36,922 nucleotides of DNA. Origin: a virus. Under the pieces are notes generated by a model, which saw only the letters and a program-made list of their open reading frames with translations, did not search any database and had not been told where the DNA came from. Positions 593 through 28,349 of this stretch are shown piece by piece (the stretch's first letter is position 1; each line of letters starts with the position of its first letter). The position numbers were made by a program, and so were the translations under genes. The stretch is from positions 1 to 36,922 of IMG/VR virus record IMGVR_UViG_3300028829_004610. One strand, 5' to 3'.

Positions 593-2014
593 ATGTCCGA
601 TGAACTGAAGAATGAAGTTACGGCCGATGCCAAGGATCAGGCGTCTGCTATCGTTGAAACCCTCGATACCATGAACGGTGCTATCGAAAAGCTCGCCAAG
701 AGCCAGGAAGACCTGGACAGTAAGATCGAGCAGAATGCAAAAGTCGTTCCTGCCTGGTTGCAGAGCGCTCCGAATGTCGCCGTTGGTGAGCGTGCCGGCA
801 CTAGCCGTCCGTTCTCCTTCTCTCGATTGGCTGTTGGTCTTGCGAAACAGGCTGCAAAAGATGAAAGCTGGCGTGAAGACGCTAAGCTGGAAATGCAGTT
901 TTCACAAGCTCTCGGCAATCAGCTCGGCTTCGGCATGGGGCGTGTTGCGGTGCCTATCGGTGCTGAATACATGTCCGACGAGCTGGGTCTGACTGATCTC
1001 CGCAAGGAGTGGACTGACATGGATAAGAACCTGGAAGGGTTCGATCCAGAAGAAATGCGGTGGATGGCTGACAAGCTGGACTTGAATAAGAGTATGTCGT
1101 TCCGAACTCACACTTCGGGCGGAACTCTGGTTGATTTCCCTGAGCAGGGCGAACTGATCGACCTGCTTCGAGCAAGCTCTGTCTTTGGGCAGATCAGCGG
1201 CATTTCGAACGTCCAGCTTCCGCAGCAGGGTGCAATTCGCTATCCGCGAGTTACGTCTGGTGTGACGGTCGCTTCTTACGCTGAAGTTGAAACCACTTCG
1301 GAATCAACTCCAGGCACTGACGAAGTGACTCTGGAAGCCAAGAAGTACGCTGGCCTCGTCAAAATGAGCGAAGAGTTCATGAAGTTCGCAACCAGCGTTT
1401 CGGCTGATGCGTTCATTCGCGGAGAAATGACTCAGGATATCAACCTTCAGGTTGACTCTGATATTGTCAGTGGTGGTGGTGGTAAAGAGATTCAAGGTCT
1501 CATTAACTACTCTGGCATCACGACTCACGAAGCATCTACTACTGGTACGAATGGCGATACGCTTGAGCCAGCGGACATTGATGTCCTGCTTGCTAAAATG
1601 GCTGACGCAAATGCTCCAGTCGACCGCGGAGTGTTCATCGCTCTCCGTAATCGCCTCTGGGCCAGCGTTAAGCACCGAGAAGACTCGAATGGTCGTCCGA
1701 AGTTCCAGGCAGCTGCCCAGGCTTATGGCGGCGGTCGGGTTCAGAAGGTCATGAGCGGCGAGCCGGTCTACACGAGCACGAATATCCCGAACACTCGAGC
1801 TAAGGCTTCAGGTACTGACCTGACCATGGTTCTGGCGGGCGTTTCGAGCGAACTGTACCTCGGCCGTGCTGGTGCGATGGAAATCATGATGACGAACTCT
1901 GACGGCTCTGACTTCCAGACCGGCAAGTTCACTCTTCGTGGCGTCCACTACGTCGATGCTGCTCCGAAGCACGAAGCCAGCTTTGGTCTGATTGACCAGT
2001 TGCTGCAGTCGTAA
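593..2014 (+). CDS. Major capsid protein, HK97 fold
   Basis: The 473-residue product forms the icosahedral shell of the head. Residues about 1-60 are helical and charged (delta-domain-like). From about residue 170 the sequence follows the HK97 capsid family (Phage_capsid): a TSGGTLVDFPEQGELIDLLR segment, then an Arg/Pro strand (IRYPRVTSGVTVASYAEVE), then KKYAGLVKMSEEFM and a C-terminal FTLRGVHYVDAAPKHEAS. I chose ATG 593 because GGAAAGGGA precedes it at good spacing; an earlier TTG at 569 lacks a ribosome site. A strong terminator follows at once, which fits a highly expressed structural gene. The N-terminal extension is longer than a typical mature capsid protein and may be removed during maturation (inference). 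Confidence 0.9.
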   Translation: MSDELKNEVTADAKDQASAIVETLDTMNGAIEKLAKSQEDLDSKIEQNAKVVPAWLQSAPNVAVGERAGTSRPFSFSRLAVGLAKQAAKDESWREDAKLEMQFSQALGNQLGFGMGRVAVPIGAEYMSDELGLTDLRKEWTDMDKNLEGFDPEEMRWMADKLDLNKSMSFRTHTSGGTLVDFPEQGELIDLLRASSVFGQISGISNVQLPQQGAIRYPRVTSGVTVASYAEVETTSESTPGTDEVTLEAKKYAGLVKMSEEFMKFATSVSADAFIRGEMTQDINLQVDSDIVSGGGGKEIQGLINYSGITTHEASTTGTNGDTLEPADIDVLLAKMADANAPVDRGVFIALRNRLWASVKHREDSNGRPKFQAAAQAYGGGRVQKVMSGEPVYTSTNIPNTRAKASGTDLTMVLAGVSSELYLGRAGAMEIMMTNSDGSDFQTGKFTLRGVHYVDAAPKHEASFGLIDQLLQS

Positions 2015-2028
2015 GTTAAGTAGCTAAC

Positions 2029-2060
2029 GGGACGCCTCGACTTCCGGGGCGTCCCCTTTC
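2029..2060 (+). terminator. Rho-independent terminator after the capsid gene
   Basis: An 8-bp perfect stem, GGGACGCC paired with GGCGTCCC, encloses an 11-base loop and is followed by CTTTC. It begins 15 bases after the capsid stop codon and would end the capsid mRNA or reduce read-through into the next gene. Confidence 0.75.
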
Positions 2061-2089
2061 TAAGAATCCCAGGGAAGGGAAAAGGCAGA

Positions 2090-2542
2090 ATGGCAAAGGC
2101 CAAGGAAGACAAAGAGACGGTCGCTCTTGCGGTGGAAGATATTAAGCCGTTGGAGTACGTCGAACCTGACAAATTCTACTACCTCGACTTGCAGTTCGGG
2201 CAGGAAGCGTCCTGGCGAACGTGGGGCGGAAAGCCTCGGCGAGTGGAGAACAGGCCCGGTGGCGGCTTTGATCACATTCACGACCCTAAGGTTGAGCGAG
2301 GGCTCGGTCCTTTCTGTGGTGATATTGTGAACGGACGGATCTCCAGTCACAACGATTGGATCAAACGCCACCGAGCACGCAAAGAAAAAGACTTTCGGGG
2401 TCAGCTTGATCGTCAGATCATCGTCCTGAAAGCAGAAGAAACAAATGACATCCCCAGAGAGTCTCGAGCTCAGTCGGGGATGGTGCCGATCGGAATGATC
2501 CAGTCGGTGGTTAAAGACCAGTTGGAAGCCCTTACGGGTTAA
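2090..2542 (+). CDS. Unknown protein in the head module
   Basis: This is a 150-residue soluble protein between the capsid gene and the connector genes. GGGAAGGG lies about 15 bases before the ATG. The sequence starts with a Lys/Glu tail, then has an aromatic and Arg-rich middle (FYYLDLQFGQEASWRTWGG) and a DHIHD motif near residue 60. No transmembrane segment or signal peptide is present. I do not recognise the family. Its place next to the capsid gene suggests a head accessory or decoration-related role, which is inference only. Confidence 0.7.
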   Translation: MAKAKEDKETVALAVEDIKPLEYVEPDKFYYLDLQFGQEASWRTWGGKPRRVENRPGGGFDHIHDPKVERGLGPFCGDIVNGRISSHNDWIKRHRARKEKDFRGQLDRQIIVLKAEETNDIPRESRAQSGMVPIGMIQSVVKDQLEALTG

Positions 2543-2559
2543 ACTAAAGGAACAGTCGC

Positions 2560-2964
2560 ATGCCTATCATGCCGGATCTCGCTAACAAACTAACTACGGT
2601 GCAGGGGATTGCCTCTTCTGCCCCAACGGCCAGCACAAATGGTACTGGTGCAAGCTTTGCTGATCACGAAGTCGGCCTGAGCGTTGTGTGTAATGTCGGT
2701 GCTGTCACCGGTACGACTCCAACCTGCACGGTCGCCCTTGAGCAGTCGAGCAACGACAACACTGCTGATGCCAGCGGTGCAGCTGATGCGTATTCTGCAA
2801 TCACCGGAGCAAGTACTGCTCTGACTGACTCGAATGCGAACAGCATCGTGAAGTTCATGTGCTACAATCACAACGAGAAATACATTCGTGTTGCTCTCAC
2901 GATCGGCGGAACGAACCCAACGTTCAATCTGGGTGTTACGGTTTCTGCCAACAAGAAGTCCTAA
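2560..2964 (+). CDS. Small Thr/Ser/Ala-rich structural protein
   Basis: The 134-residue protein is rich in Thr, Ser, Ala and Asn with alternating beta-strand-like segments and almost no charge in its first two thirds (for example VSLQ-like strands around GLSVVCNVGAVTG). AAGGAAC precedes the ATG at 2560. Such compact beta-rich proteins between the capsid and connector genes are often capsid decoration or minor head proteins. I infer that role from composition and place. A terminator follows, so it ends the capsid-proximal transcription unit. Confidence 0.7.
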   Translation: MPIMPDLANKLTTVQGIASSAPTASTNGTGASFADHEVGLSVVCNVGAVTGTTPTCTVALEQSSNDNTADASGAADAYSAITGASTALTDSNANSIVKFMCYNHNEKYIRVALTIGGTNPTFNLGVTVSANKKS

Positions 2965-2994
2965 GTTGACGACATTCAATTAAGCCTTCCCTGG

Positions 2995-3034
2995 AGCGGC
3001 TGGTTTCGGTTTCGGCTGATGCCGGTCGCTTTTT
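2995..3034 (+). terminator. Rho-independent terminator
   Basis: AGCGGCTGG (2995-3003) pairs with CCGGTCGCT (3022-3030) over 9 bp with two G-U pairs, followed by TTTT. It lies 31 bases after the stop at 2964 and just before the connector gene. Confidence 0.6.
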
Positions 3035-3050
3035 GGTTTGGGGTTACGAT

Positions 3051-3755
3051 ATGGCTCTCACTGACATTGTCGCGTTGTCGGATATTGAAACTGAGCTCGG
3101 GGGCGGTCTTTCCGTTGCCGATTCAGCTCTGCTTGATCTTATCCGCTTGCGTACCGAGGCTCTCGTCAGGACGTACGTGAGGTGGAATATCACCACAGCG
3201 ACATACACTCATTACTTGCCAGCTCACAGCCCCACAGGTCAAAGACTTCAGTTGCCTCAGCCGTTTGTTACTTCGGTCACTTCGGTTCACGAGGATCGCC
3301 AGTCTCGAGGCGGCCAGCAGTCGGGCGACTTTGATAGCTCTGACGAGCTTGTTGTCGGGACAGACTTCTGGATTGATTACGATGCCACTGACTATTCACG
3401 AGAAGGCATTCTGTACCGGTACGGGTGGGAATGGCCTCGTATCCCTCGATCAGTGAAGGTGATTTACGTTTCGGGGTTTGATCCCACCGCTCTCGCTAAC
3501 GAGTTCCTGTACGTTCAGGATGCGGTCATTAACGAGACGATCAATCGTTTTCACTTCCGGAAGCAGAACCAGGGAGCAACCGGAATTGCCGGAACAGTCA
3601 AGAGGGAGAAGCTGAAAGACTACGAGATTGAATACGACACGAGCAGTAGTGTGTCGGTCGGAAATAGTGCCTCGAAAGCGACTGGCCAGTCTGGTCTTTC
3701 TGATCTCGCTAAGGGCTCTCTAGATCCGATCATGTTCATGGGGAGAATGCTTTAA
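3051..3755 (+). CDS. Head-tail connector protein (HK97 gp6 / SPP1 gp15-like adaptor)
   Basis: The 234-residue protein probably forms the adaptor ring under the portal. The N-terminal half is helical and begins with a short segment (MALTDIVALSDIETELG) like the start of phage gp6-like connector proteins, which open with a helix that addresses DNA packaging junctions. The middle carries a hairpin-like region (LPAHSPTGQRLQLPQPFVTSV) seen in longer gp6-like proteins that resemble a substrate-hydration loop. I chose ATG 3051 over the in-frame TTG at 3033 because it is the first strong start codon. The gene overlaps the next one by a single base (TAATG), indicating coupling within the neck operon. 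Confidence 0.75.
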   Translation: MALTDIVALSDIETELGGGLSVADSALLDLIRLRTEALVRTYVRWNITTATYTHYLPAHSPTGQRLQLPQPFVTSVTSVHEDRQSRGGQQSGDFDSSDELVVGTDFWIDYDATDYSREGILYRYGWEWPRIPRSVKVIYVSGFDPTALANEFLYVQDAVINETINRFHFRKQNQGATGIAGTVKREKLKDYEIEYDTSSSVSVGNSASKATGQSGLSDLAKGSLDPIMFMGRML

Positions 3756-5812: not shown

Positions 5813-6199
5813 ATGGCAGCTGTTTCAGGATTAAATGGATACGTTACTGTCGGCAGCTGTACGGTTGCCTGTTTGACGGACTGTGACCTCACTTACGGTT
5901 CACCAAACGAAGAGTTCTTCTGTGTGAGTGGTGCCGGCTCTAGTAACACTATTGCTACGGCTAAGCGAGGATCAGGCACAATGAACCTGGTGCTTGACGA
6001 CGCGGCCTTGTTTACAAGCGTTGCAGAGTCGGGCGAGCTGGTTGCAGTGGTCTTCTACTCGAAGACTGGCGGCGACTCAGCATCCGGAAACGCTCGAATT
6101 GGGCAGATTCAAACCACGTTCAATCTGGAAGGGACAGTGGAGCGGGTTACTGTTCCATTCATGACTGACGGGGTGTGGACTGGTACTCTCGTGACATAA
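5813..6199 (+). CDS. Major tail tube protein (putative)
   Basis: The 128-residue beta-rich protein starts MAAVSGLNGYVTVG, like many tail tube proteins that begin with a short strand followed by a conserved Gly. The end carries TVERVTVPFMTDGVWTG, like the paired strands of the tube fold. It is short for a tube protein (usually 140-250 residues) but is correctly placed, after the tail terminator and before the chaperone and tape measure genes, and is followed by a strong terminator as highly expressed tube genes often are. Confidence 0.6.
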   Translation: MAAVSGLNGYVTVGSCTVACLTDCDLTYGSPNEEFFCVSGAGSSNTIATAKRGSGTMNLVLDDAALFTSVAESGELVAVVFYSKTGGDSASGNARIGQIQTTFNLEGTVERVTVPFMTDGVWTGTLVT

Positions 6200-6210
6200 G
6201 ACAAAAACGC

Positions 6211-6258
6211 AACACGAAAGCGGGGTACGTTCAATCGTGCCCCGCTTTTTTTCGTGTT
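6211..6258 (+). terminator. Strong Rho-independent terminator after the tail tube gene
   Basis: GCGGGG plus TACG pairs with CGTG plus CCCCGC around a 6-base loop, followed by TTTTTTT. The stem can extend further through AACACGAAA and TTTCGTGTT, so it can act in both directions. It lies just after the tail tube stop. Confidence 0.85.
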
Positions 6259-6283
6259 GACCTGTGGTCCGCTTTTGTAATCA
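6257..6283 (+). promoter_or_regulatory. Weak candidate promoter upstream of 6307
   Basis: TTGACC (6257-6262) and TAATCA (6278-6283) are separated by 15 bases, which is shorter than ideal. It follows a strong terminator, so a new start of transcription would be expected here. Low confidence because of spacing. Confidence 0.25.
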
Positions 6284-6306
6284 TGTCTCTGGGAAGGGAG
6301 AAATGA

Positions 6307-7068
6307 ATGAGCGGATTAGCAGTTCTCTGCAATTCAGGGCCGGTAATTCAAATCGAAGGCGTCTCGTATCAACTCAAGGGGCGCACTCTGCGTCACCTCG
6401 GCGAGGCTGAGGCTCAGATAATGTCGATGAGAGGAGACGTCTTCTCCTATTTACGACAGTCGGTTCATGGCCAGACTAAGGATGATGCGATCAAGATCAT
6501 AGAGGGGACCCTGAAGAAGATCAGGTTCCGGTGGATTGGATGCAATGGAGAGGATATCCATCGCTTCTATTCAACACTCGAGGGGCGTGCTTACTCCTTC
6601 TGGCAGTCCATTCGTCATTGTGGGTTAGGCATAGACGAATCAAGAGAGCTGTACCTTCGACAGGCTGACCGAGACAGCGAATGGGAATCAAATATCAAGT
6701 TCTCGATCGAATTAGCAACTGGCGAAGCTGACGTGTGTCGCTTGTACAAGATCTGTGGGCTGACAAGACAGGACTCCACTCGCTCGGATAGCTACTTAAT
6801 CACAAAGAGGGGCTTATTCTCTACCTTATTCAGGGAACCATTTGGCTACACGGCCGAGCAAGTTGCCGACATGACTCTTGGCCAGGTGTCGCTAATCATT
6901 GGAGATAGCGAGAAAGCGGCACACGATATCGACGAAGAGAAGAATCTGGAGACGAGGCCTAATAACCCAGGCGTTCGTCGCATGAAGAACACCTACAAGA
7001 AGCCATACCACGAAATGGCCGTTAACCTAGTCAATGGATACTCCTTGACGAGCGGCCTTATCAGCTAA
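6307..7068 (+). CDS. Unknown protein before the tape measure gene (possible tail assembly protein)
   Basis: The 253-residue protein has no membrane segment. Its first 40 residues look like a short beta unit (VIQIEGVSYQLKGRTLRHLG); the rest is mostly helical. I chose ATG 6307, preceded by GGGAAGGGAG; a nearer ATG at 6303 is out of frame. The gene lies between the tail tube and the tape measure genes, the usual place of tail assembly chaperones, but the length exceeds the usual size and no slippery overlap with the next gene exists. The role is inference from place. Confidence 0.6.
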   Translation: MSGLAVLCNSGPVIQIEGVSYQLKGRTLRHLGEAEAQIMSMRGDVFSYLRQSVHGQTKDDAIKIIEGTLKKIRFRWIGCNGEDIHRFYSTLEGRAYSFWQSIRHCGLGIDESRELYLRQADRDSEWESNIKFSIELATGEADVCRLYKICGLTRQDSTRSDSYLITKRGLFSTLFREPFGYTAEQVADMTLGQVSLIIGDSEKAAHDIDEEKNLETRPNNPGVRRMKNTYKKPYHEMAVNLVNGYSLTSGLIS

Positions 7069-13150: not shown

Positions 13151-14671
13151 ATGGCGATCAACTCAGACTTGACAGGACAAGAGGCATCGACTTCCCTGGA
13201 AGGATACATCTTCCCTGTCGATCCCACCGACCCGGCAGAGTGTTTCAGTCGCACTCCGTCCTATTACATCGACACCGAGCTGCTAATGGTGACGATCGAT
13301 GGGAAGCTGTATCCCTTGCATTTATGCGGGGACACAAACACTGGAATGAACTGGAACGGCTGCAGTCATGGAGTTGTAGACGACACACAATCGTCCTGTC
13401 CGTGGACAAGAACAGGAGACACTGTCACAGCTCAAGCCTGTATCATGGACGAGTGTGACGGGTATGTCCTGGATACGACCAAAAAGCCGTATGTGTTAAT
13501 CGCTGAGATTGGCGGCCAATGGTACATCGTAAACGTGATCAGTGCCGATGGGCTCCCTGACACGGACGACATGGGCTATCTCCCTTGTGACGCATGCTGC
13601 GATCTCGGGGTAGGCACAGTCGAGGCGTCTTTATCTGGTTGTGGCGACTTCGACGGTGAGACTTTCACGATGTACGGTGGAAGCGGGTACTGGACTGGAG
13701 TGGTTGAGATTGATGGCGGGGTTTTCTACTTCAATCTTTCCTGCAGCATTAACGTTACGGACGCAGAGAACTGGACAGCCACTGGTGGCTGCGGAAATGC
13801 AGTACCAGCAGACGAGCTGGAAGTGAACTGCAATCCCATTGATGCGACAGGAACGGGTACAGGTACTGGCTCCTCGGTCACAATTGATGGCGACGGCCGA
13901 ATGAGCGGCTCCGCCCGATTCGCCAACTCTGGATGTAGCGAATGCAGCGATGGGGCAATTGTTGTTAATTTTGCATCCGTGGCAGGTCGCCCTCGCGATG
14001 AATGCCGCACGATGACTCGCACTGGCCAGTTTGTTACGGCCGAAGCGTGTGGACTGGACGATCTTGCAGTCGGGGACGAAGTTATCATGGCTTACGTTCC
14101 CAAGTATCCAATAAGCCCGACCGGAACAGGAACTGGCACCTCTGAAGTGCCTCAGTATCACATTGTCCAGGTATGCCGCGGCGAAGGGGAATGTCAGCCC
14201 TGCCCGCCGCCGCCGCCGGGTGATCCGATCGACTGTTGTGATCTGACAGATGATACGGTCCCCTTGCTCTTAACTGGAACGGTCAGTGTTTCCAGTGCTG
14301 TCTATGGCTGCAATTGCACGTCCAAGCCAATAAGTTTTGCTTATGCTGAAGGGTCCAATCCGCCAGAGTGGCACCAGTCTGGTCTTATCGACTGCGAAGA
14401 CGCAACCGGGACATCAGTCGAGCTCTCTGATCTTTCGGGGATGGTGATTAGCTGTAGCGGAACTGGAACCGGAACAGGCAGTGGAGCGGCTGACTTCTTC
14501 TTAACTCCTCCCGGCTGCTACGCTGATCCTGCTGTAGAATCCACTTCAGGGCAATGTGAACCCTTAATAATGGAGTGGGAAGATGTTGACATACAAGGCT
14601 GTTGCGGAGTCATTCTTGATCCTAATGATGTTGGACTACCGATCCTTATGACTATTGAGGTCTCAGAATGA
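13151..14671 (+). CDS. Cys-rich, TGTGTG-linked tail tip or fibre protein
   Basis: The 506-residue protein is rich in Cys, Thr and Gly and contains several TGTGTG linkers (near residues 236, 323 and 438) and a Pro run (PPPPP near 350). At least one module is duplicated: a CCDL segment occurs at about residues 148 and 360 and is followed each time by a TV..L..G strand pattern; a TRTGxxVTAxAC segment also occurs twice. Disulfide-linked beta modules joined by flexible Thr-Gly linkers fit an extracellular, host-contacting virion protein. The stop overlaps the next ATG (ATGA). Function not recognised. Confidence 0.65.
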   Translation: MAINSDLTGQEASTSLEGYIFPVDPTDPAECFSRTPSYYIDTELLMVTIDGKLYPLHLCGDTNTGMNWNGCSHGVVDDTQSSCPWTRTGDTVTAQACIMDECDGYVLDTTKKPYVLIAEIGGQWYIVNVISADGLPDTDDMGYLPCDACCDLGVGTVEASLSGCGDFDGETFTMYGGSGYWTGVVEIDGGVFYFNLSCSINVTDAENWTATGGCGNAVPADELEVNCNPIDATGTGTGTGSSVTIDGDGRMSGSARFANSGCSECSDGAIVVNFASVAGRPRDECRTMTRTGQFVTAEACGLDDLAVGDEVIMAYVPKYPISPTGTGTGTSEVPQYHIVQVCRGEGECQPCPPPPPGDPIDCCDLTDDTVPLLLTGTVSVSSAVYGCNCTSKPISFAYAEGSNPPEWHQSGLIDCEDATGTSVELSDLSGMVISCSGTGTGTGSGAADFFLTPPGCYADPAVESTSGQCEPLIMEWEDVDIQGCCGVILDPNDVGLPILMTIEVSE

Positions 14672-15897
14672 GTGAAGAATTTGATTGTGATTCCCTTAAG
14701 GGGCTGAAGCGGATGCTCTGCCAGGGATACAAGTACGATGAGCATGGCAATGAAGTACAGCTAACTTCCAACGAGCATGCCAGATGGATGGCTTCCTTTA
14801 CTGGTAAACCTGTTCCTCCCCGAGAATCCTTGCCGAAGGTCATCGAGCAGCGTCTCGCAGTCAAAAAGGAAGGAGTAGGCACTGAGCTTGAGCGACTTTT
14901 CGAGTCTGTTCGTTTTGCGACCTGTGGAGCATGCCGGGCACTCAGGGATCAGATGAACGAATGGGGCCCTGCTAAGTGTCGAGAAAACAGAGAAGAGTTA
15001 ATCGACAAACTGAAGCAGAACGCACGCAAAAGGAAGGTTCTGAGGCACATATTCTCAGAGACTGCCGCCGGGATGTTCATCGACCAGGCTATCACTAACA
15101 CGGAAATGAGAGAGGCCAATCAGGAGCCACCGTCTGGAGTTTTCGCTAATGTCATCAGTAAGTTTGCTGGCGGCAGAAGCCCTAAAAAGAAGCCTTCCTG
15201 TAAGGAGATCAAGTGGTCCTATGGGGTTACGACCGTCCCTCTTCGTGTTAACGACTTGCTCCCCCGAACTCTTGACTCATTGGCTGCTGCTGGCTTCGGT
15301 AGGCCTCATCTCTTTGTGGACAGTTGCGAGTCTCCTAAAGACTACGACAAGTTTGGGCTGAGCTGTACGTTCCGGATGACTCGCACGAAGACCTTCGCGA
15401 ACTGGATTGCTGCTGCCTGGGAGCTTTATGCGTCAGAGCCTAATGCTGATCGGTACGCCATCTTCCAGGATGATTTTGTGTGCTGCAAGGGGCTGCGTAA
15501 ATATCTCGATGAGTCACCATATCCCGGCAAGGGATATCTGAACCTGCTTACTTTTCCTGAGAACGACAAGCTTATCAAGGATAAGAAGAGGGGATGGCAC
15601 AAGTCGAACCAGAGAGGACTGGGGGCAGTTGCCCTGGTGTTCGATAACGCCGCGATTAGTTCACTGCTGAGTAGTTCCCACATGGTTTCTCGACAGAGAG
15701 GCCCAAGGGCACATCGAGCGGTTGACGGTGCTATCCTTGAGTCCTTCCGCAAGCTTGGGCAAAAGGAGTTCGTTCATAACCCGTCCCTGGTTCAGCACAC
15801 AGGCGAAGATTCATCAATGGGTAACGTCAAGCACCCTTTATCGCCTTCATGGCAAGGCGAGGACTGGAATGCTTACGAAGAAATGAAAGGAAGATAA
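14668..15897 (+). CDS. Glycosyltransferase-like protein with phage-specific N-terminal region
   Basis: The 409-residue protein has a helical, Cys-containing N-terminal region (CGACRALRDQMNEWGPAKC near residue 90) and a GT-A-type glycosyltransferase-like domain from about residue 184 to the end. That domain has a YGVTTVPLR start, NADRYAIFQDDFV near residue 262 (an Asp pair where GT-A enzymes bind the metal and sugar nucleotide) and FVHNPSLVQHTG near 370. It overlaps the Cys-rich tail gene by ATGA, so it probably sugar-coats a tail protein or modifies the host surface. The next gene carries a paralogous domain. Confidence 0.7.
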   Translation: MSEEFDCDSLKGLKRMLCQGYKYDEHGNEVQLTSNEHARWMASFTGKPVPPRESLPKVIEQRLAVKKEGVGTELERLFESVRFATCGACRALRDQMNEWGPAKCRENREELIDKLKQNARKRKVLRHIFSETAAGMFIDQAITNTEMREANQEPPSGVFANVISKFAGGRSPKKKPSCKEIKWSYGVTTVPLRVNDLLPRTLDSLAAAGFGRPHLFVDSCESPKDYDKFGLSCTFRMTRTKTFANWIAAAWELYASEPNADRYAIFQDDFVCCKGLRKYLDESPYPGKGYLNLLTFPENDKLIKDKKRGWHKSNQRGLGAVALVFDNAAISSLLSSSHMVSRQRGPRAHRAVDGAILESFRKLGQKEFVHNPSLVQHTGEDSSMGNVKHPLSPSWQGEDWNAYEEMKGR

Positions 15898-17385
15898 ATG
15901 GCTTTGCTTACTTGGGAATACGGAATAACCACTGTTCCTTCAAGACGTAAGGATCTTCTTCCTCGAACTATCAGTAGTCTTAATCGTGCGGGCTTTACTG
16001 AACCTCATGTATTCGTGGACGGGTGTGGTGATCCGAGCGAGTACGATTCACTAGGCCTGGACTGTACGGTTAGATCTCAGCGAATCAGGACCTCGGGCCA
16101 TTGGGTGACATCCCTGTGGGAGCTGTGGACTAAGAATTCAAATGCTGACCGGTACGCCATCTTCCAAGATGACTTCGTTATTGCGAAGAATGCCAAGCAC
16201 TACTTGGATTCTTGTAAATGGCCTCGTCCTGGCTACCTCAATCTGCTGACTTTCCGGGAAAACTACGAGCTTATCGGCAGAAAAAGTATCGGCTGGCATA
16301 AATCTGATCAGCTTGGTAAAGGTGCCGTTGCTCTGGTTTTCGATAACGAGTCCGTAGCATCCCTGCTTTCCAATCCTCATCTGGTTCAGTGGCTTAAGAA
16401 TCAGTCCAAGGGTCACCGTCTTATTGACAGAGCTATCTCGCAGTCGATGAAGAAGAAAGGCTTAACTGAGCACATTCATAACCCGAGCCTTATTCAGCAC
16501 ACGGGCCTGAAGTCCTCAATGGGAAGCGATAAGCATCCCTTGTCGACTTGCTTCCGCGGAGAAGAATATGATGCCATGAGATTTCTTGGATCGCCGGCGC
16601 AGGATCAGTCACTTATTGATGCTGATTACGGAAAGCCAGTTATTCGTGTAGCTCTTCCAGCGGTAGATTCCGAGGACTTGACGATAGAGTGCCTCAGGAG
16701 CCTTTTTCGGTCCAACTGGCCAGTGGTTGTTGACTATGTCGACAACGGATCTAAGGACGGAGTATCTGATCGTATTGTTGAGTTCGCAAACTCAATAGGA
16801 CTTCAGATTGAATGCACTCGGTTCAAAAAAAACAGAGGGTTCACTGAAGCTGTAAATGTTTCAATCAGCAAAGCCATTCATAATAAACAGCATTGCCTCA
16901 TACTGAACAACGACTGCTTTGTGGCATCCACTACAGTGGAGCGACTCTACCGTGCAATGATCTCTGAGGATTCAATCGCCGCAGTTGGTCCCCTTAGCAT
17001 GGATAAGGGCAATCAGTCACTGAAGCGTCGAAAAAGGCTTTGGCAATCAGGATTGAAACACTTGCCAAGAGACGCCTCTGACACTGAGGGAATATCCAGG
17101 TCTTTGAAATACTCGGGATCCACACAAGTCAAGAGGCTTGCCTTCTTTTGCTCACTCCTGAAGTACGAGGCAATGGCTAAAGTTGGCCTTCTCTCCTCTG
17201 ATCTTAAGGATGGACTCGGAGCCGATGACCTCTGGTGTCATTTTGCTAGAAAGCATGGAATGACTTGCAATATTGCCCTGAATGCGTACGCCAATCACAT
17301 GCATTCTGAGACATTTAAGCGTCTGGGGCTCAATCGACGCAAGATGGCAAAGGTAGCGACCAGAAAGCTCAGAAAGTACAACTAA
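15898..17385 (+). CDS. Two-domain glycosyltransferase (paralogue of upstream domain fused to GT2)
   Basis: Residues 1 to about 228 are clearly similar to the C-terminal domain of the previous gene (YGITTVPSRR, RYAIFQDDFV, GAVALVFDN, HNPSLIQHTG), so the two genes arose by tandem duplication. From about residue 248 a second, GT2-family domain follows (VIRVALPAVDSEDLTIEC), with VDNGSKDG near 280 and NNDC near 336, matching the nucleotide-sugar fold and DxD-like position. A two-domain enzyme could add two sugars in series. It begins at the base after the previous stop codon. Signals and membrane segments are absent, so it acts in the host cytoplasm. Confidence 0.75.
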   Translation: MALLTWEYGITTVPSRRKDLLPRTISSLNRAGFTEPHVFVDGCGDPSEYDSLGLDCTVRSQRIRTSGHWVTSLWELWTKNSNADRYAIFQDDFVIAKNAKHYLDSCKWPRPGYLNLLTFRENYELIGRKSIGWHKSDQLGKGAVALVFDNESVASLLSNPHLVQWLKNQSKGHRLIDRAISQSMKKKGLTEHIHNPSLIQHTGLKSSMGSDKHPLSTCFRGEEYDAMRFLGSPAQDQSLIDADYGKPVIRVALPAVDSEDLTIECLRSLFRSNWPVVVDYVDNGSKDGVSDRIVEFANSIGLQIECTRFKKNRGFTEAVNVSISKAIHNKQHCLILNNDCFVASTTVERLYRAMISEDSIAAVGPLSMDKGNQSLKRRKRLWQSGLKHLPRDASDTEGISRSLKYSGSTQVKRLAFFCSLLKYEAMAKVGLLSSDLKDGLGADDLWCHFARKHGMTCNIALNAYANHMHSETFKRLGLNRRKMAKVATRKLRKYN

Positions 17386-17403
17386 GCCCAGCTTCTTCAC
17401 GGA

Positions 17404-17432
17404 TTGACCCCCGCGGCTTTCCTTGCTATAGA
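17404..17432 (+). promoter_or_regulatory. Sigma70-type promoter for the tail fibre genes
   Basis: TTGACC (17404-17409) and TATAGA (17427-17432) are separated by exactly 17 bases. This is the best promoter I see in the window. The start point would fall near 17439, leaving a 5' leader of about 25 bases before the ATG at 17465. Confidence 0.7.
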
Positions 17433-17458
17433 TCAGTGTGTCTCTACAGCAAGGAAGC
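17416..17458 (+). promoter_or_regulatory. Hairpin covering the ribosome binding site of 17465
   Basis: GCTTTCCTTGCT (17416-17427) pairs with AGCAAGGAAGC (17448-17458) with one bulged T and a 20-base loop. The 3' arm contains AAGGAAG, the ribosome binding site of the next gene. Transcripts from the promoter above start inside the loop and lack the 5' arm. Confidence 0.6.
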
Positions 17459-17464
17459 TGCCTG

Positions 17465-18964
17465 ATGCCTGAATTCCTGCCCACATTCTGGAACACAAAG
17501 ACTCAGCACAATGGGTCAAGCCGGACTTCTAAAGTCTCTGGTGGGCAGATTGCGTACAAGAAGAAAAGCACTGACTGGAGCTTATTGAATACGGACATCC
17601 AGGATGATGGAGTGTATTTTTCAGTCACTGCTTTCCCGGGCAATGCCCAGATGCCTGCTAACGCACAAGACTGGATGGACCTTAATTTCGATAGCCAGTA
17701 CTCCGCCAAAAGGCAGATCACAGAGGGAAACTGGAGCCACTCTGAAGATGCTTTTGAAATGAGGATGAGAACTGATTGTCCTACTAACTCAGTAGGTATC
17801 ATACACCCTGATAAACCTTGGCAAGTAATTTACTACAATGCGTTTGGGCAAGGTGCAAATCTCATCTACGGTATCTGGCGTGGGCGAGCCACTAGAGTCG
17901 AGCACGTCATTGAGATAACGGAAATGCCTTCGGGTAACAGTGAATATCTCACCTACGATTTCTACATCCAATCCAACGACGCTACAACTTTTGTAGGTGC
18001 CAACTTGGACCAGAGGCCTTGGAGCGGGAATAGCGGGGACGCTGCTACAGTTGAAGGTTTTGATGTTTTCCTAGCAAAAGGAGATGATCCCGCAACTGTG
18101 AGAGGTTCAGTTCTTAGGACTCCGGTCTGTTGGTGGGCTAACATTGACGGGACTCTTACCCGAAAGAATGTCCGAGTTGACTTTGAGATTCAGCCTGATG
18201 GAATAACCGTCAAGGCTACGAAGTACGTCAAGAGGTCAGACATAGCAGAGGCTCTCTCTCAGGGAGTCCCGTACAGGGCTGATGCTACATTTAATCCTGA
18301 TGCAAATCCAGAGACCAGTAGTGCTGATGGTCGAACCAGACGCAACGGCACAGAATCGTGGTCGGCAAAGCGTGACGGTGCAGGATTGTTCTTCGACGAC
18401 GCATCTTCAGCCGAGGCAGTATGGATCAGTATGGCCGGCACAACTGATAATTATGACCTAATGGACAGGCTTTTTTACTGGCTGGACACAAGTTCGATTG
18501 GGTCAGGTCAGTCAATCGACTCCGGAGATTTTGGATTCACGACTTCTAATATCAACACGGGTGACATTGGGATGGAAGTCAACCTCTGTGGCTCGACCAG
18601 CAGCAACACAACCTCTGTGGCTGCGGCAGATTATCAGACTGCTAGCTTCTCGCCGCTGTACTCAGATACCAGCATTACAGCGACCTCTGCCGGAACCTTC
18701 ACAAGGAACACCCTTACACTGAATCAGGATGGAAGAGACGCAGTCAATGTCACTGGTTTGACTCGTTTCTGTCTCGGTTGTTCAAATTATGACTTTGCAG
18801 ACTCTGAACCAACATGGGTATCCAGTGGCGATCAACAGCTAGGCGTGTACATGTCCGAGCAGGGGACTGCTGGGCGTGATCCAGAGCTAACAGTTACTCA
18901 TTCAGCGGCAGGCCCAGCTATGCCGATTTTAATAAGACACTATGACAATATGAGGGCAAAATGA
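17465..18964 (+). CDS. Tail fibre or appendage protein
   Basis: The 499-residue protein is beta-rich with low Cys. It starts at ATG 17465, which is preceded by AAGGAAG; an upstream in-frame GTG (17438) would lie in the promoter start region. The C-terminal part (FYWLDTSSIGSG, then NTLTLNQDGRDAVN, ending DPELTVTHS) resembles domains found in phage and planctomycete surface proteins of the DNRLRE kind. The N-terminal half may be a jelly-roll-like carbohydrate domain (inference). The stop overlaps the next ATG (ATGA), so it is translated with the next fibre gene. Confidence 0.65.
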   Translation: MPEFLPTFWNTKTQHNGSSRTSKVSGGQIAYKKKSTDWSLLNTDIQDDGVYFSVTAFPGNAQMPANAQDWMDLNFDSQYSAKRQITEGNWSHSEDAFEMRMRTDCPTNSVGIIHPDKPWQVIYYNAFGQGANLIYGIWRGRATRVEHVIEITEMPSGNSEYLTYDFYIQSNDATTFVGANLDQRPWSGNSGDAATVEGFDVFLAKGDDPATVRGSVLRTPVCWWANIDGTLTRKNVRVDFEIQPDGITVKATKYVKRSDIAEALSQGVPYRADATFNPDANPETSSADGRTRRNGTESWSAKRDGAGLFFDDASSAEAVWISMAGTTDNYDLMDRLFYWLDTSSIGSGQSIDSGDFGFTTSNINTGDIGMEVNLCGSTSSNTTSVAAADYQTASFSPLYSDTSITATSAGTFTRNTLTLNQDGRDAVNVTGLTRFCLGCSNYDFADSEPTWVSSGDQQLGVYMSEQGTAGRDPELTVTHSAAGPAMPILIRHYDNMRAK

Positions 18965-21096
18965 TATATTTAAAACAAAGTACCGCGAGTCAATCAGTTC
19001 TCATTGGACCATTCGTTGATGATACAGATGGTGCTACCCCAGAGACCGGTCTAAGTATTGCTAATACGGATATTAGACTGTCTGCTAATGGTGGCAATAT
19101 GGCAGCCAAAAACTCTGGTGGTGCTACACACGATGAGGCTGGACTCTATTCTATTACGCTGGATGCTACAGATACTGCGACAGTTGGTAGACTTCAGCTT
19201 TCGGTTAAGGTCACTGGAGCACTATATGTGTTTCATGATTTTCAGGTTCTGGAAGAGGCGATTTATGATTCGCTTATTGGCTCGGGAGCTACTGGAGACC
19301 TTGGAGTAGACGTTGTTTCTATCTCTGGAGATTCTGGTGCCGCCGATAACCTTGAGCTTCAATACGATGGAACGGGGTTAACTGGAGATAACTTCCCGGC
19401 AAATCAGCAGCAGGTTGGTAACATCTCAGTTGGTGCTGGAGGTCTTTCGGTAGATGCTACTTCATTCACTCTGACTACTGGAACTGAATCCAGTGGAACA
19501 GTTTCAAATACTGAGGAACTGGATGGAGTTCTTCATACTATCACGCCTTCTGCCTCAGAAATTGATTGCTACTACGAGTTCGACGTAGGAACTAATGGGT
19601 CAGCTACAGAGGCTATCTGGGATGGGTACGTTGGCAATAATGCCGATGCCGTTGAAGTCTATGGGTATGACTGGATTTCAACCTCATATAAGCAAATTGG
19701 AACTATCGACGGAAAGAATGCCGACACTAATGAAGAACAGGCTTACATCCTGACTAAGGCAATGACCGGGACAGGAGCTAACGTAGGACTGGTCAGAGTT
19801 AAGTTTGGCTCAAGCGGAGGAGATGTAGCGGTTGACCTGAACACTGACCGTATCCTTTGTGAGTATACCTCAATTGCTGCTGAGAGATTGATCCTTCATT
19901 CAGGACTAGCTCAAGCAGGTACTTCCAATACAGTCACTCTGGACTCTGGAGCTAATGCTACAGATGACTACTACAAACATGCTCGAATTCTAGTGGCGAG
20001 CGGTACTGGCTTAGAACAGGAAAGGATTGTTGTTGATTATGTTGGCTCAACCAAAGTAGCAACGATTGCTCCTCCTTGGGTTACTAATCCAGATACTACG
20101 AGTGTTCTTGAAGTTCTTCCTGGATTGGCTCATGCCGAAACTAACTCTAAGACGGTTAAAGTTGGTTTGGCTCAAGCGGCAACTTCATCTTCTATCACTC
20201 TCGCTACTGACGCATCCTCAGTTGACGATTACTACAACGATGATGTTGTAATCATTGATGCAGGAACAGGAGAGGGTCAGGAGAGAATTATCACTGACTA
20301 CAACGGTACTACCAAAGTTGCGTCTATCGTTCCAGACTGGATCACTACTCCAGATGCTACTTCAGAGTACATCGTAGAAGAGGCTTTGACCGTAACAGGG
20401 TTGATTGAGGCTGCACCTTTGGCGGCTGTTGCTGACGAAGTTCTAGATGAAGCCTTGTCTGGTCATAACACAGCGGGGACTCTTGGAAAAGCTGTTCGCC
20501 AAATGAAAGAAGGTCTCATCTCAGAAGAGTCTTCAGTTAATGATGCAGGAGCCACTGACACATCCTTCATTACTAATCTCACTGAGGCTTCAGACGACCA
20601 TTACAACGACCTAACTATGGTCTTCACCTCAGGAGCGTTGACTGGCCAATCGAGAGTTATTGCCGATTACAATGGGACTACCAAGACTGTGACCTTTGAC
20701 GAAGCATGGACAGAAGCTCCGGCTGACGCTGATGACTTCATTATCAAGACGGATCATATTCATACCAAAACTCAAATCGCCACCGAGGTCTGGTCAGCTT
20801 CCGGTCGTGCTCTATCCGATCCGGCTGGATTCAAGAAGAATACGGCTGCTGATATCACTTTCGTTCTTCGGGATAGTTCAGATGGAAGAACTCCAATTGC
20901 CTCAGAGACCGTAACGGCTCAAAGGTCTATTGATGGGGCCGCTTTTGGGGCTTGTGCTAACTCTGTTACCGAGATCGGAAACGGCGCTTACATAATCACC
21001 CTAGCCGCAGCGGATCTAAACGGCGATATTGCGATTCTTCGATTCACTTCAACGAACTCTGACGATCTCCTGATCACCATTAAGACGGAGACATAA
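18961..21096 (+). CDS. Tail fibre-like protein with three repeats
   Basis: The 711-residue acidic protein has an N-terminal domain (about 1-110) beginning MIYLKQSTASQSVLIGPFVD and a related C-terminal domain (about 625-711, DITFVLRDSSDGRTP). Between them lie three repeats at about residues 310-388, 399-477 and 524-597. Each contains a DDYYND-like turn, an EGQERIITDYNGTTK-type strand pair and a Trp near the end. This repeat layout is common in trimeric tail fibres and spikes of planctomycete and marine phages. It probably contacts the host. A beta-rich acidic makeup supports a stable extracellular fibre. Confidence 0.7.
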   Translation: MIYLKQSTASQSVLIGPFVDDTDGATPETGLSIANTDIRLSANGGNMAAKNSGGATHDEAGLYSITLDATDTATVGRLQLSVKVTGALYVFHDFQVLEEAIYDSLIGSGATGDLGVDVVSISGDSGAADNLELQYDGTGLTGDNFPANQQQVGNISVGAGGLSVDATSFTLTTGTESSGTVSNTEELDGVLHTITPSASEIDCYYEFDVGTNGSATEAIWDGYVGNNADAVEVYGYDWISTSYKQIGTIDGKNADTNEEQAYILTKAMTGTGANVGLVRVKFGSSGGDVAVDLNTDRILCEYTSIAAERLILHSGLAQAGTSNTVTLDSGANATDDYYKHARILVASGTGLEQERIVVDYVGSTKVATIAPPWVTNPDTTSVLEVLPGLAHAETNSKTVKVGLAQAATSSSITLATDASSVDDYYNDDVVIIDAGTGEGQERIITDYNGTTKVASIVPDWITTPDATSEYIVEEALTVTGLIEAAPLAAVADEVLDEALSGHNTAGTLGKAVRQMKEGLISEESSVNDAGATDTSFITNLTEASDDHYNDLTMVFTSGALTGQSRVIADYNGTTKTVTFDEAWTEAPADADDFIIKTDHIHTKTQIATEVWSASGRALSDPAGFKKNTAADITFVLRDSSDGRTPIASETVTAQRSIDGAAFGACANSVTEIGNGAYIITLAAADLNGDIAILRFTSTNSDDLLITIKTET

Positions 21097-23759: not shown

Positions 23760-23797
23760 AGACCTCAGCCTTGCCTTGACATTTGTCTTTGGCCAAG

Positions 23798-23869
23798 TCG
23801 AACCGGCAGGACTCGAACCTGCGCCTCCAGTAGCTAACTGGCGATCTTCTCCACCTAATCTACGGTTCG
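23798..23869 (-). tRNA. tRNA-like gene with a short anticodon loop
   Basis: A cloverleaf fits on the minus strand: a 7-bp acceptor stem (CGAACCG with CGGTTCG), U8 and A9, a 4-bp D stem with A14, G18-G19 and A21 in a 10-base loop, a T arm GCAGG-TTCGAGT-CCTGC and discriminator A. The anticodon arm is CCAGT-TAGCT-ACTGG, with only a 5-base loop instead of 7 (or a 4-bp stem with a TTAGCTA loop and anticodon AGC). No CCA is encoded. The anticodon and amino acid cannot be named with confidence. Likely a degenerate or unusual phage tRNA. Confidence 0.6.
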
Positions 23870-27782: not shown

Positions 27783-28349
27783 CTATTGCGGCATGACGCT
27801 TCCCTCAGCTCCCCACAGGGCAATCGCCTTGCATTGACTGAAGTCGCTTAGAGTGAACCGAATCGTCTTAACTCCGAATGGATTCAGCTTTGCTCGCAGA
27901 GTTCTTCCGAGCTCAAGATCGATCATCTTGCCGTTATCTCTCAAGTGCGAAAACTCGTGCTGTACAATCACCTCTTTGATCGCAGCCAGGGAAAGGTCGC
28001 AAATTGTATCTTCGTAGTCAAAGCACTCAGTCAGTAGCTTGACAACATTATTCACTTCGTACACCAGGATTCCTCGGACTCCGATCGTCTTCTGGTCCTT
28101 AGTTGTTAGATACTGAGGCTGCAGCTTTGTTGTTTGCCGCTTAACGGGAACAACCTCGCACTCCGTGACTAGCGGCCAGTAGACGTGAATTCCTGTGCGG
28201 AATAGTCCATTGCCTGATTTCATTTCGATCGCATTGTTGCCGTTCCGGAAGCGGACCCCGGCGTGCGTAGATCTAACCAATATTATCTGGGGTATCGTCT
28301 TTAGTATCGCCCTGAAGACGTCCCCCAGCCAGCTTAGTGCGGATTCCAT
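27783..28349 (-). CDS. SPFH / Band 7 domain protein
   Basis: The 188-residue protein fits the SPFH (stomatin/prohibitin/flotillin) family. A hydrophobic or amphipathic N-terminus (ALSWLGDVFRAILKTIPQIILV) is followed by a strand-rich Band 7 domain with GNGLFRTGIHVYWPLVTECEVVPVK, and IGVRGILVYEVNN, typical of the repeated strands of that fold. SPFH proteins gather at membranes and organise lipid-protein patches. A phage version may alter the host envelope or interact with membrane proteases. AGGAGAAGG is the ribosome site. Length is short, with little C-terminal coiled coil. Confidence 0.75.
   Translation of the reverse strand: MESALSWLGDVFRAILKTIPQIILVRSTHAGVRFRNGNNAIEMKSGNGLFRTGIHVYWPLVTECEVVPVKRQTTKLQPQYLTTKDQKTIGVRGILVYEVNNVVKLLTECFDYEDTICDLSLAAIKEVIVQHEFSHLRDNGKMIDLELGRTLRAKLNPFGVKTIRFTLSDFSQCKAIALWGAEGSVMPQ

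Follow-up and report, generated by a model that had tools for sequence, protein, structure and literature searches.

A predicted sigma70-type promoter within a ribosome-site-hiding hairpin: a candidate translational insulator in an uncultured phage

The uncultured phage virus record IMGVR_UViG_3300028829_004610 contains a 499-aa open reading frame whose leader combines a promoter sequence, a hairpin and a ribosome binding site. This arrangement raises the question of whether translation of the gene is shielded from transcripts that enter from its upstream neighbours, in the way described for gene e of bacteriophage T4. The whole 36,922 nt sequence was analysed and is referred to here as the window, with all positions in window numbering; the phage record collection that we searched contained no match to it. 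The leader and its flanks are laid out as follows, with L031 denoting a related viral contig.

15898 to 17385, + strand: upstream glycosyltransferase ORF (Glycos_transf_2, Pfam PF00535), the putative source of read-through RNA
17395 to 17403, + strand: conserved CTTCACGGA directly 5' of the -35 hexamer, 9/9 identical in L031 despite an unrelated gene farther upstream
17404 to 17409, + strand: -35 hexamer TTGACC, read from the sequence and invariant in L031
17413 to 17427, + strand: hairpin 5' arm, within the promoter spacer and ending at the first -10 base, with the core TTCCTTG at 17419-17425 (from the fold and spacer shuffles)
17424 to 17425, + strand: extended -10 TG (TGn-TATAGA), found in the sequences of both the window and L031
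17427 to 17432, + strand: -10 hexamer TATAGA, with a final base other than the usual T, read from the sequence and invariant in L031
17438 to 17440, + strand: where RNA from the local promoter is expected to start, at G17438 or G17440 (T17439 lies between), placed from the -10 position
17448 to 17461, + strand: hairpin 3' arm (from the fold), with zero substitutions in L031
17451 to 17456, + strand: ribosome binding site AAGGAA, 8 nt 5' of the ATG at 17465
17465 to 18964, + strand: 499-aa ORF behind the leader, a candidate receptor-binding or fibre-like protein
18961 to 21096, + strand: 711-aa ORF (from the ORF list), overlapping the stop of the 499-aa ORF by 4 nt

An initial annotation described a TTGACC-17-TATAGA promoter overlapping the 5' arm of an 11-bp hairpin whose 3' arm holds the ribosome site, and sequence and fold bear out this layout, including the 17 nt spacer; the hairpin stands, and the length of 11 bp is roughly right but too low, the stem having 14 bp, a single bulged base and an inner set of 4 bp. 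The predicted stem (17413-17427 with 17448-17461) consists of 7+7 bp on either side of a bulged T, one of the pairs being G.U, and the four further pairs inside it are formed by TAGA and TCTA. The segment 17404-17467 folds at -24.8 kcal/mol (z -4.06), less extreme in a wider segment of 96 nt (z -2.2). At the DNA level there is a plain inverted repeat of 14 nt, matched at 13/14 positions (17419-17432 and 17443-17456), and because it takes in the -10 hexamer the promoter and the stem have bases in common. The hairpin was rejected as an intrinsic terminator because it lacks a T run.

The promoter is predicted from its sequence to be of the host sigma70 type. Among 6885 sigma70-like scores in the window it ranks sixth, and it has the top score upstream of any listed + strand gene; the matrix used is an approximate E. 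coli one. A stricter consensus scan of the window did not list the site, since its -10 hexamer lacks the final T. The T4 late promoter sequence TATAAATA is absent from the leader, where TTGACC-17-TATAGA stands instead, and because the promoter is sigma70-like this is not a T4-type late leader, though it would resemble gene e in its working. A motif common to this promoter and one near 6255 was considered and rejected: both start with TTGACC and the downstream spacing differs.

Given this sequence layout, the predicted folds and the conservation in one relative, where another gene stands upstream, we somewhat favour the reading that the element is a translational insulator like that of T4 gene e, built around a sigma70-type promoter. 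We infer that the promoter fires and that read-through occurs. RNA reading through from the upstream operon would contain both arms, the 14-bp stem would form and close AAGGAA, and the 499-aa protein would be made poorly from it. The promoter overlaps the 5' arm and would start RNA near 17438-17440, past that arm, leaving the ribosome site open for translation. How much of the 499-aa protein is made would then depend on the promoter of its own gene, whatever the level of the structural operon.

Folding of both transcript forms gave the difference that the initial annotation had predicted, closed in the long form and open in the short one. With both arms present AAGGAA is predicted to be unpaired with a probability of 0.003, as against 0.48-0.78 for RNAs starting at 17438-17440, and the predicted cost of opening the site falls from 8.4-10.6 kcal/mol to 0.2-0.6 kcal/mol. 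In read-through RNA, folding thus predicts that a stem covers the ribosome site, and promoter position and folding together point to a promoter RNA that would lack the 5' arm. Across 48 gene starts in the window, compared by unpaired probability in a context of -80/+40, the 499-aa ORF has the most hidden ribosome site (0.007; the next is 0.126). Since the stop of the upstream ORF, at 17385, lies 28 nt 5' of the stem, terminating ribosomes should leave the stem closed.

A simpler explanation is that an ordinary promoter and ribosome site are complementary by chance, and that the promoter with its TG and the ribosome site account for most of the conservation. Some one of 48 gene starts must rank as the most hidden, and when all free bases of 17386-17449 were shuffled, equal hiding was reached in 37/2000 cases. 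Shuffling the spacer only, with both hexamers, TGn and the ribosome site held fixed, gave equal hiding in 0/1000 cases for the window and 4/1000 for L031, which argues against chance, and we regard this explanation as unlikely.

The relative L031 is a single viral contig; it carries the same ORF at 56% identity and runs colinear with the window along much of its length. Over the noncoding stretch 17395-17464 the two sequences are identical at 62/70 positions with zero indels, whereas fourfold-degenerate sites of the 499-aa ORF match at just 39/124 (31%) and are near saturation; by this comparison conservation of the block far exceeds the neutral level. Of the eight substitutions, six fall in the promoter spacer; the 3' arm has none. 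The TTCCTTG of the 5' arm is unchanged, and its TTCC, needed by neither the hexamers nor TGn, is thus retained while neutral sites are near saturation, a further point against chance complementarity. The absence of covariation between the two available sequences, in which the 3' arm is invariant, weighs on the other side. One substitution in the spacer, C to G at 17426, breaks a pair; the L031 stem retains 14 bp, partly via other partners, and is weaker (z -1.42). Its substitutions are not unusually structure-saving, with 105/729 alternatives equal or better. The predicted opening cost in L031 is 1.6-5.1 kcal/mol with both arms, only 1.6 kcal/mol in a 200-nt context, and 0.0-0.1 kcal/mol for the short starts. 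Hiding reduces translation and does not abolish it, and since it is also weaker in L031, the earlier proposal that fibre proteins are made only on firing of the local promoter goes too far.

Conservation of all 70 nt also bears on a second alternative, namely that the dyad is a DNA operator, with a repressor or activator binding TTCCTTG/CAAGGAA half-sites that flank the -10 hexamer and the RNA hairpin a by-product. The conserved bases include the region between the arms and the nine bases 5' of the -35 hexamer, which the hairpin does not need; CTTCACGGA at 17395-17403 may represent upstream promoter contacts or activator or operator bases. An operator and a hairpin at one site also have a precedent in I-TevI (PMC2988022). 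The half-site centres are, however, about 31 bp apart, a long way for one dimer, the ribosome site accounts fully for the 3' half-site, and no regulator is known. In the window the stem has a bulge and a G.U pair, natural in RNA and unnatural in a DNA dyad, and we consider an operator improbable as the explanation. It is far less credible that the gene starts at the in-frame GTG at 17438 on a leaderless RNA, which would make the conserved 27 nt coding sequence. Both phages have an open frame here, and the sole change 3' of the GTG is synonymous (CTA/CTC), but there is no ribosome site 5' of GTG 17438, a good one lies 8 nt before ATG 17465, and the equally conserved bases 5' of the GTG cannot be coding there.

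The insulator reading gains a context from the neighbouring genes. Immediately upstream of the block L031 has a sulfotransferase gene, and the window an unrelated glycosyltransferase; the downstream genes of the two are related chiefly in their C-terminal 104 residues. Since the neighbours swap while promoter, stem and ORF stay together, the block travels with the ORF and not with a neighbour. A more distant homologue, L044 (37% identity), has an overlap with the gene upstream and lacks both a promoter of this kind and the element. Further carriers were sought among viral contigs with the 499-aa ORF, the glycosyltransferase, the capsid and the downstream ORF as queries, and with alignments and DNA patterns in viral and genome contigs; the element was found only in L031. 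Pattern matches in L037 and L039 were rejected because they lack the arrangement of arms and ribosome site, and inspection by eye of the bacterial matches in L065-L070 led us to class them as unrelated and due to chance.

Two consecutive ORFs upstream of the leader, at 14668-17385, have related domains. The ORF at 14668-15897 and the N-terminal half of that at 15898-17385 both align to one 742-aa ORF of L031, the L031 region concerned being 1373-3601. The shared alignment to the 742-aa ORF suggests duplication and domain exchange beside the putative cassette.

The 499-aa protein has no match in Pfam or PHROG, a PDB sequence search returned no match, and its structure model is poor (pLDDT 45.9). 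The first description of it as a fibre protein therefore becomes a possibility: it may be a receptor-binding or fibre-like protein. The 711-aa ORF is probably on the same transcript, because it overlaps the preceding stop by 4 nt.

Genes upstream on the + strand of the window include those for the capsid and a head-tail adaptor, which are of late type, and we found no convincing terminator before 17404 in the window. The other gene-adjacent TTGACC site, before 6307, differs in that a canonical terminator with a T run precedes it. On one reading the phage stops read-through by termination before 6307 and by hiding of the ribosome site at 17404. The block at 6195-6312, which is 79% identical in contig L041, comprises the terminator hairpin GCGGGG...CCCCGC TTTTTTT and, directly after it, the TTGACC promoter-like site and the ORF 6307 ribosome site. 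A noncoding, hairpin-like GC-rich block at 2960-3040, after an ORF ending at 2964, includes 50 nt that are perfectly conserved in the same contig.

Among the various other features of the window, we note two SegE-like GIY-YIG endonuclease ORFs (Pfam PF19835; 31198-31587 and 34903-35349), which align to the same stretch of contig L043 and are therefore probably paralogous mobile genes. A tRNA-Ala with the anticodon AGC, unusual for bacteria, lies at 23797-23869 on the - strand, overlaps a listed short ORF and is the only known RNA family found in the window. The ORF at 27783-28349 encodes an SPFH/Band 7 domain protein (Pfam PF01145).

In the transposase leaders of IS10 and IS50, RNA that enters from outside folds its ribosome site into a stem involving the terminal sequence of the element, and RNA from the internal promoter does not; the window differs in that no insertion element is seen. 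The likeness to gene e proposed initially agrees with the published description of that gene, in which, for T4 and its T-even relatives, a promoter lies in the 5' strand of the stem that hides the ribosome site and locally started RNA is made without that strand (PMC3014915), as is predicted for the window. In T4, gene e, soc, 49 and I-TevI are under promoter-in-hairpin control, and the long RNA yields about 100-fold less lysozyme (PMC3014915). The same hairpin-plus-promoter layout is found at I-TevII, I-TevIII, segB and Aeh1 mobE, where it prevents translation of an inserted endonuclease gene from transcripts of the neighbouring genes (PMC2988022). These T4 and Aeh1 leaders give the design an experimental precedent (PMC3014915, PMC2988022). 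Gene e has a late-sigma promoter and early read-through is blocked, whereas the window has a sigma70-like promoter behind structural genes and ahead of a different gene. With capsid and head-tail adaptor genes upstream the read-through RNA is likely to be late, and the T4 purpose of an early block, which the initial annotation had carried over, is not transferable. Late-type genes upstream and a promoter of the host sigma70 type make it likelier that the gene is uncoupled from the structural operon than that its expression is delayed. The leaders of I-TevI, I-TevII, I-TevIII, segB and Aeh1 mobE are the closest in logic to a gene with a swapped upstream neighbour, though the window target is not an endonuclease and has no T4 late promoter; by this analogy, insulation from neighbouring transcription, as for inserted endonucleases, would fit better than the T4 early block. 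We infer this purpose, and likewise the size of the effect.

A more tentative scenario, which we think possible though doubtful, is that promoter, hairpin and gene form a portable cassette: a surface or host-recognition gene whose modification-gene neighbours vary from phage to phage would carry its own insulator, independent of T4 and with a host-type promoter, and its dose would be independent of the operon. The promoter-in-hairpin element is here in a phage lineage unrelated to T4 and probably had an independent origin. If this is true, the promoter-in-stem trick would be convergent and, with no late sigma factor involved, would still shield a gene from neighbouring ones; phages that lack RNA data could then be scanned for conserved blocks built in this way.
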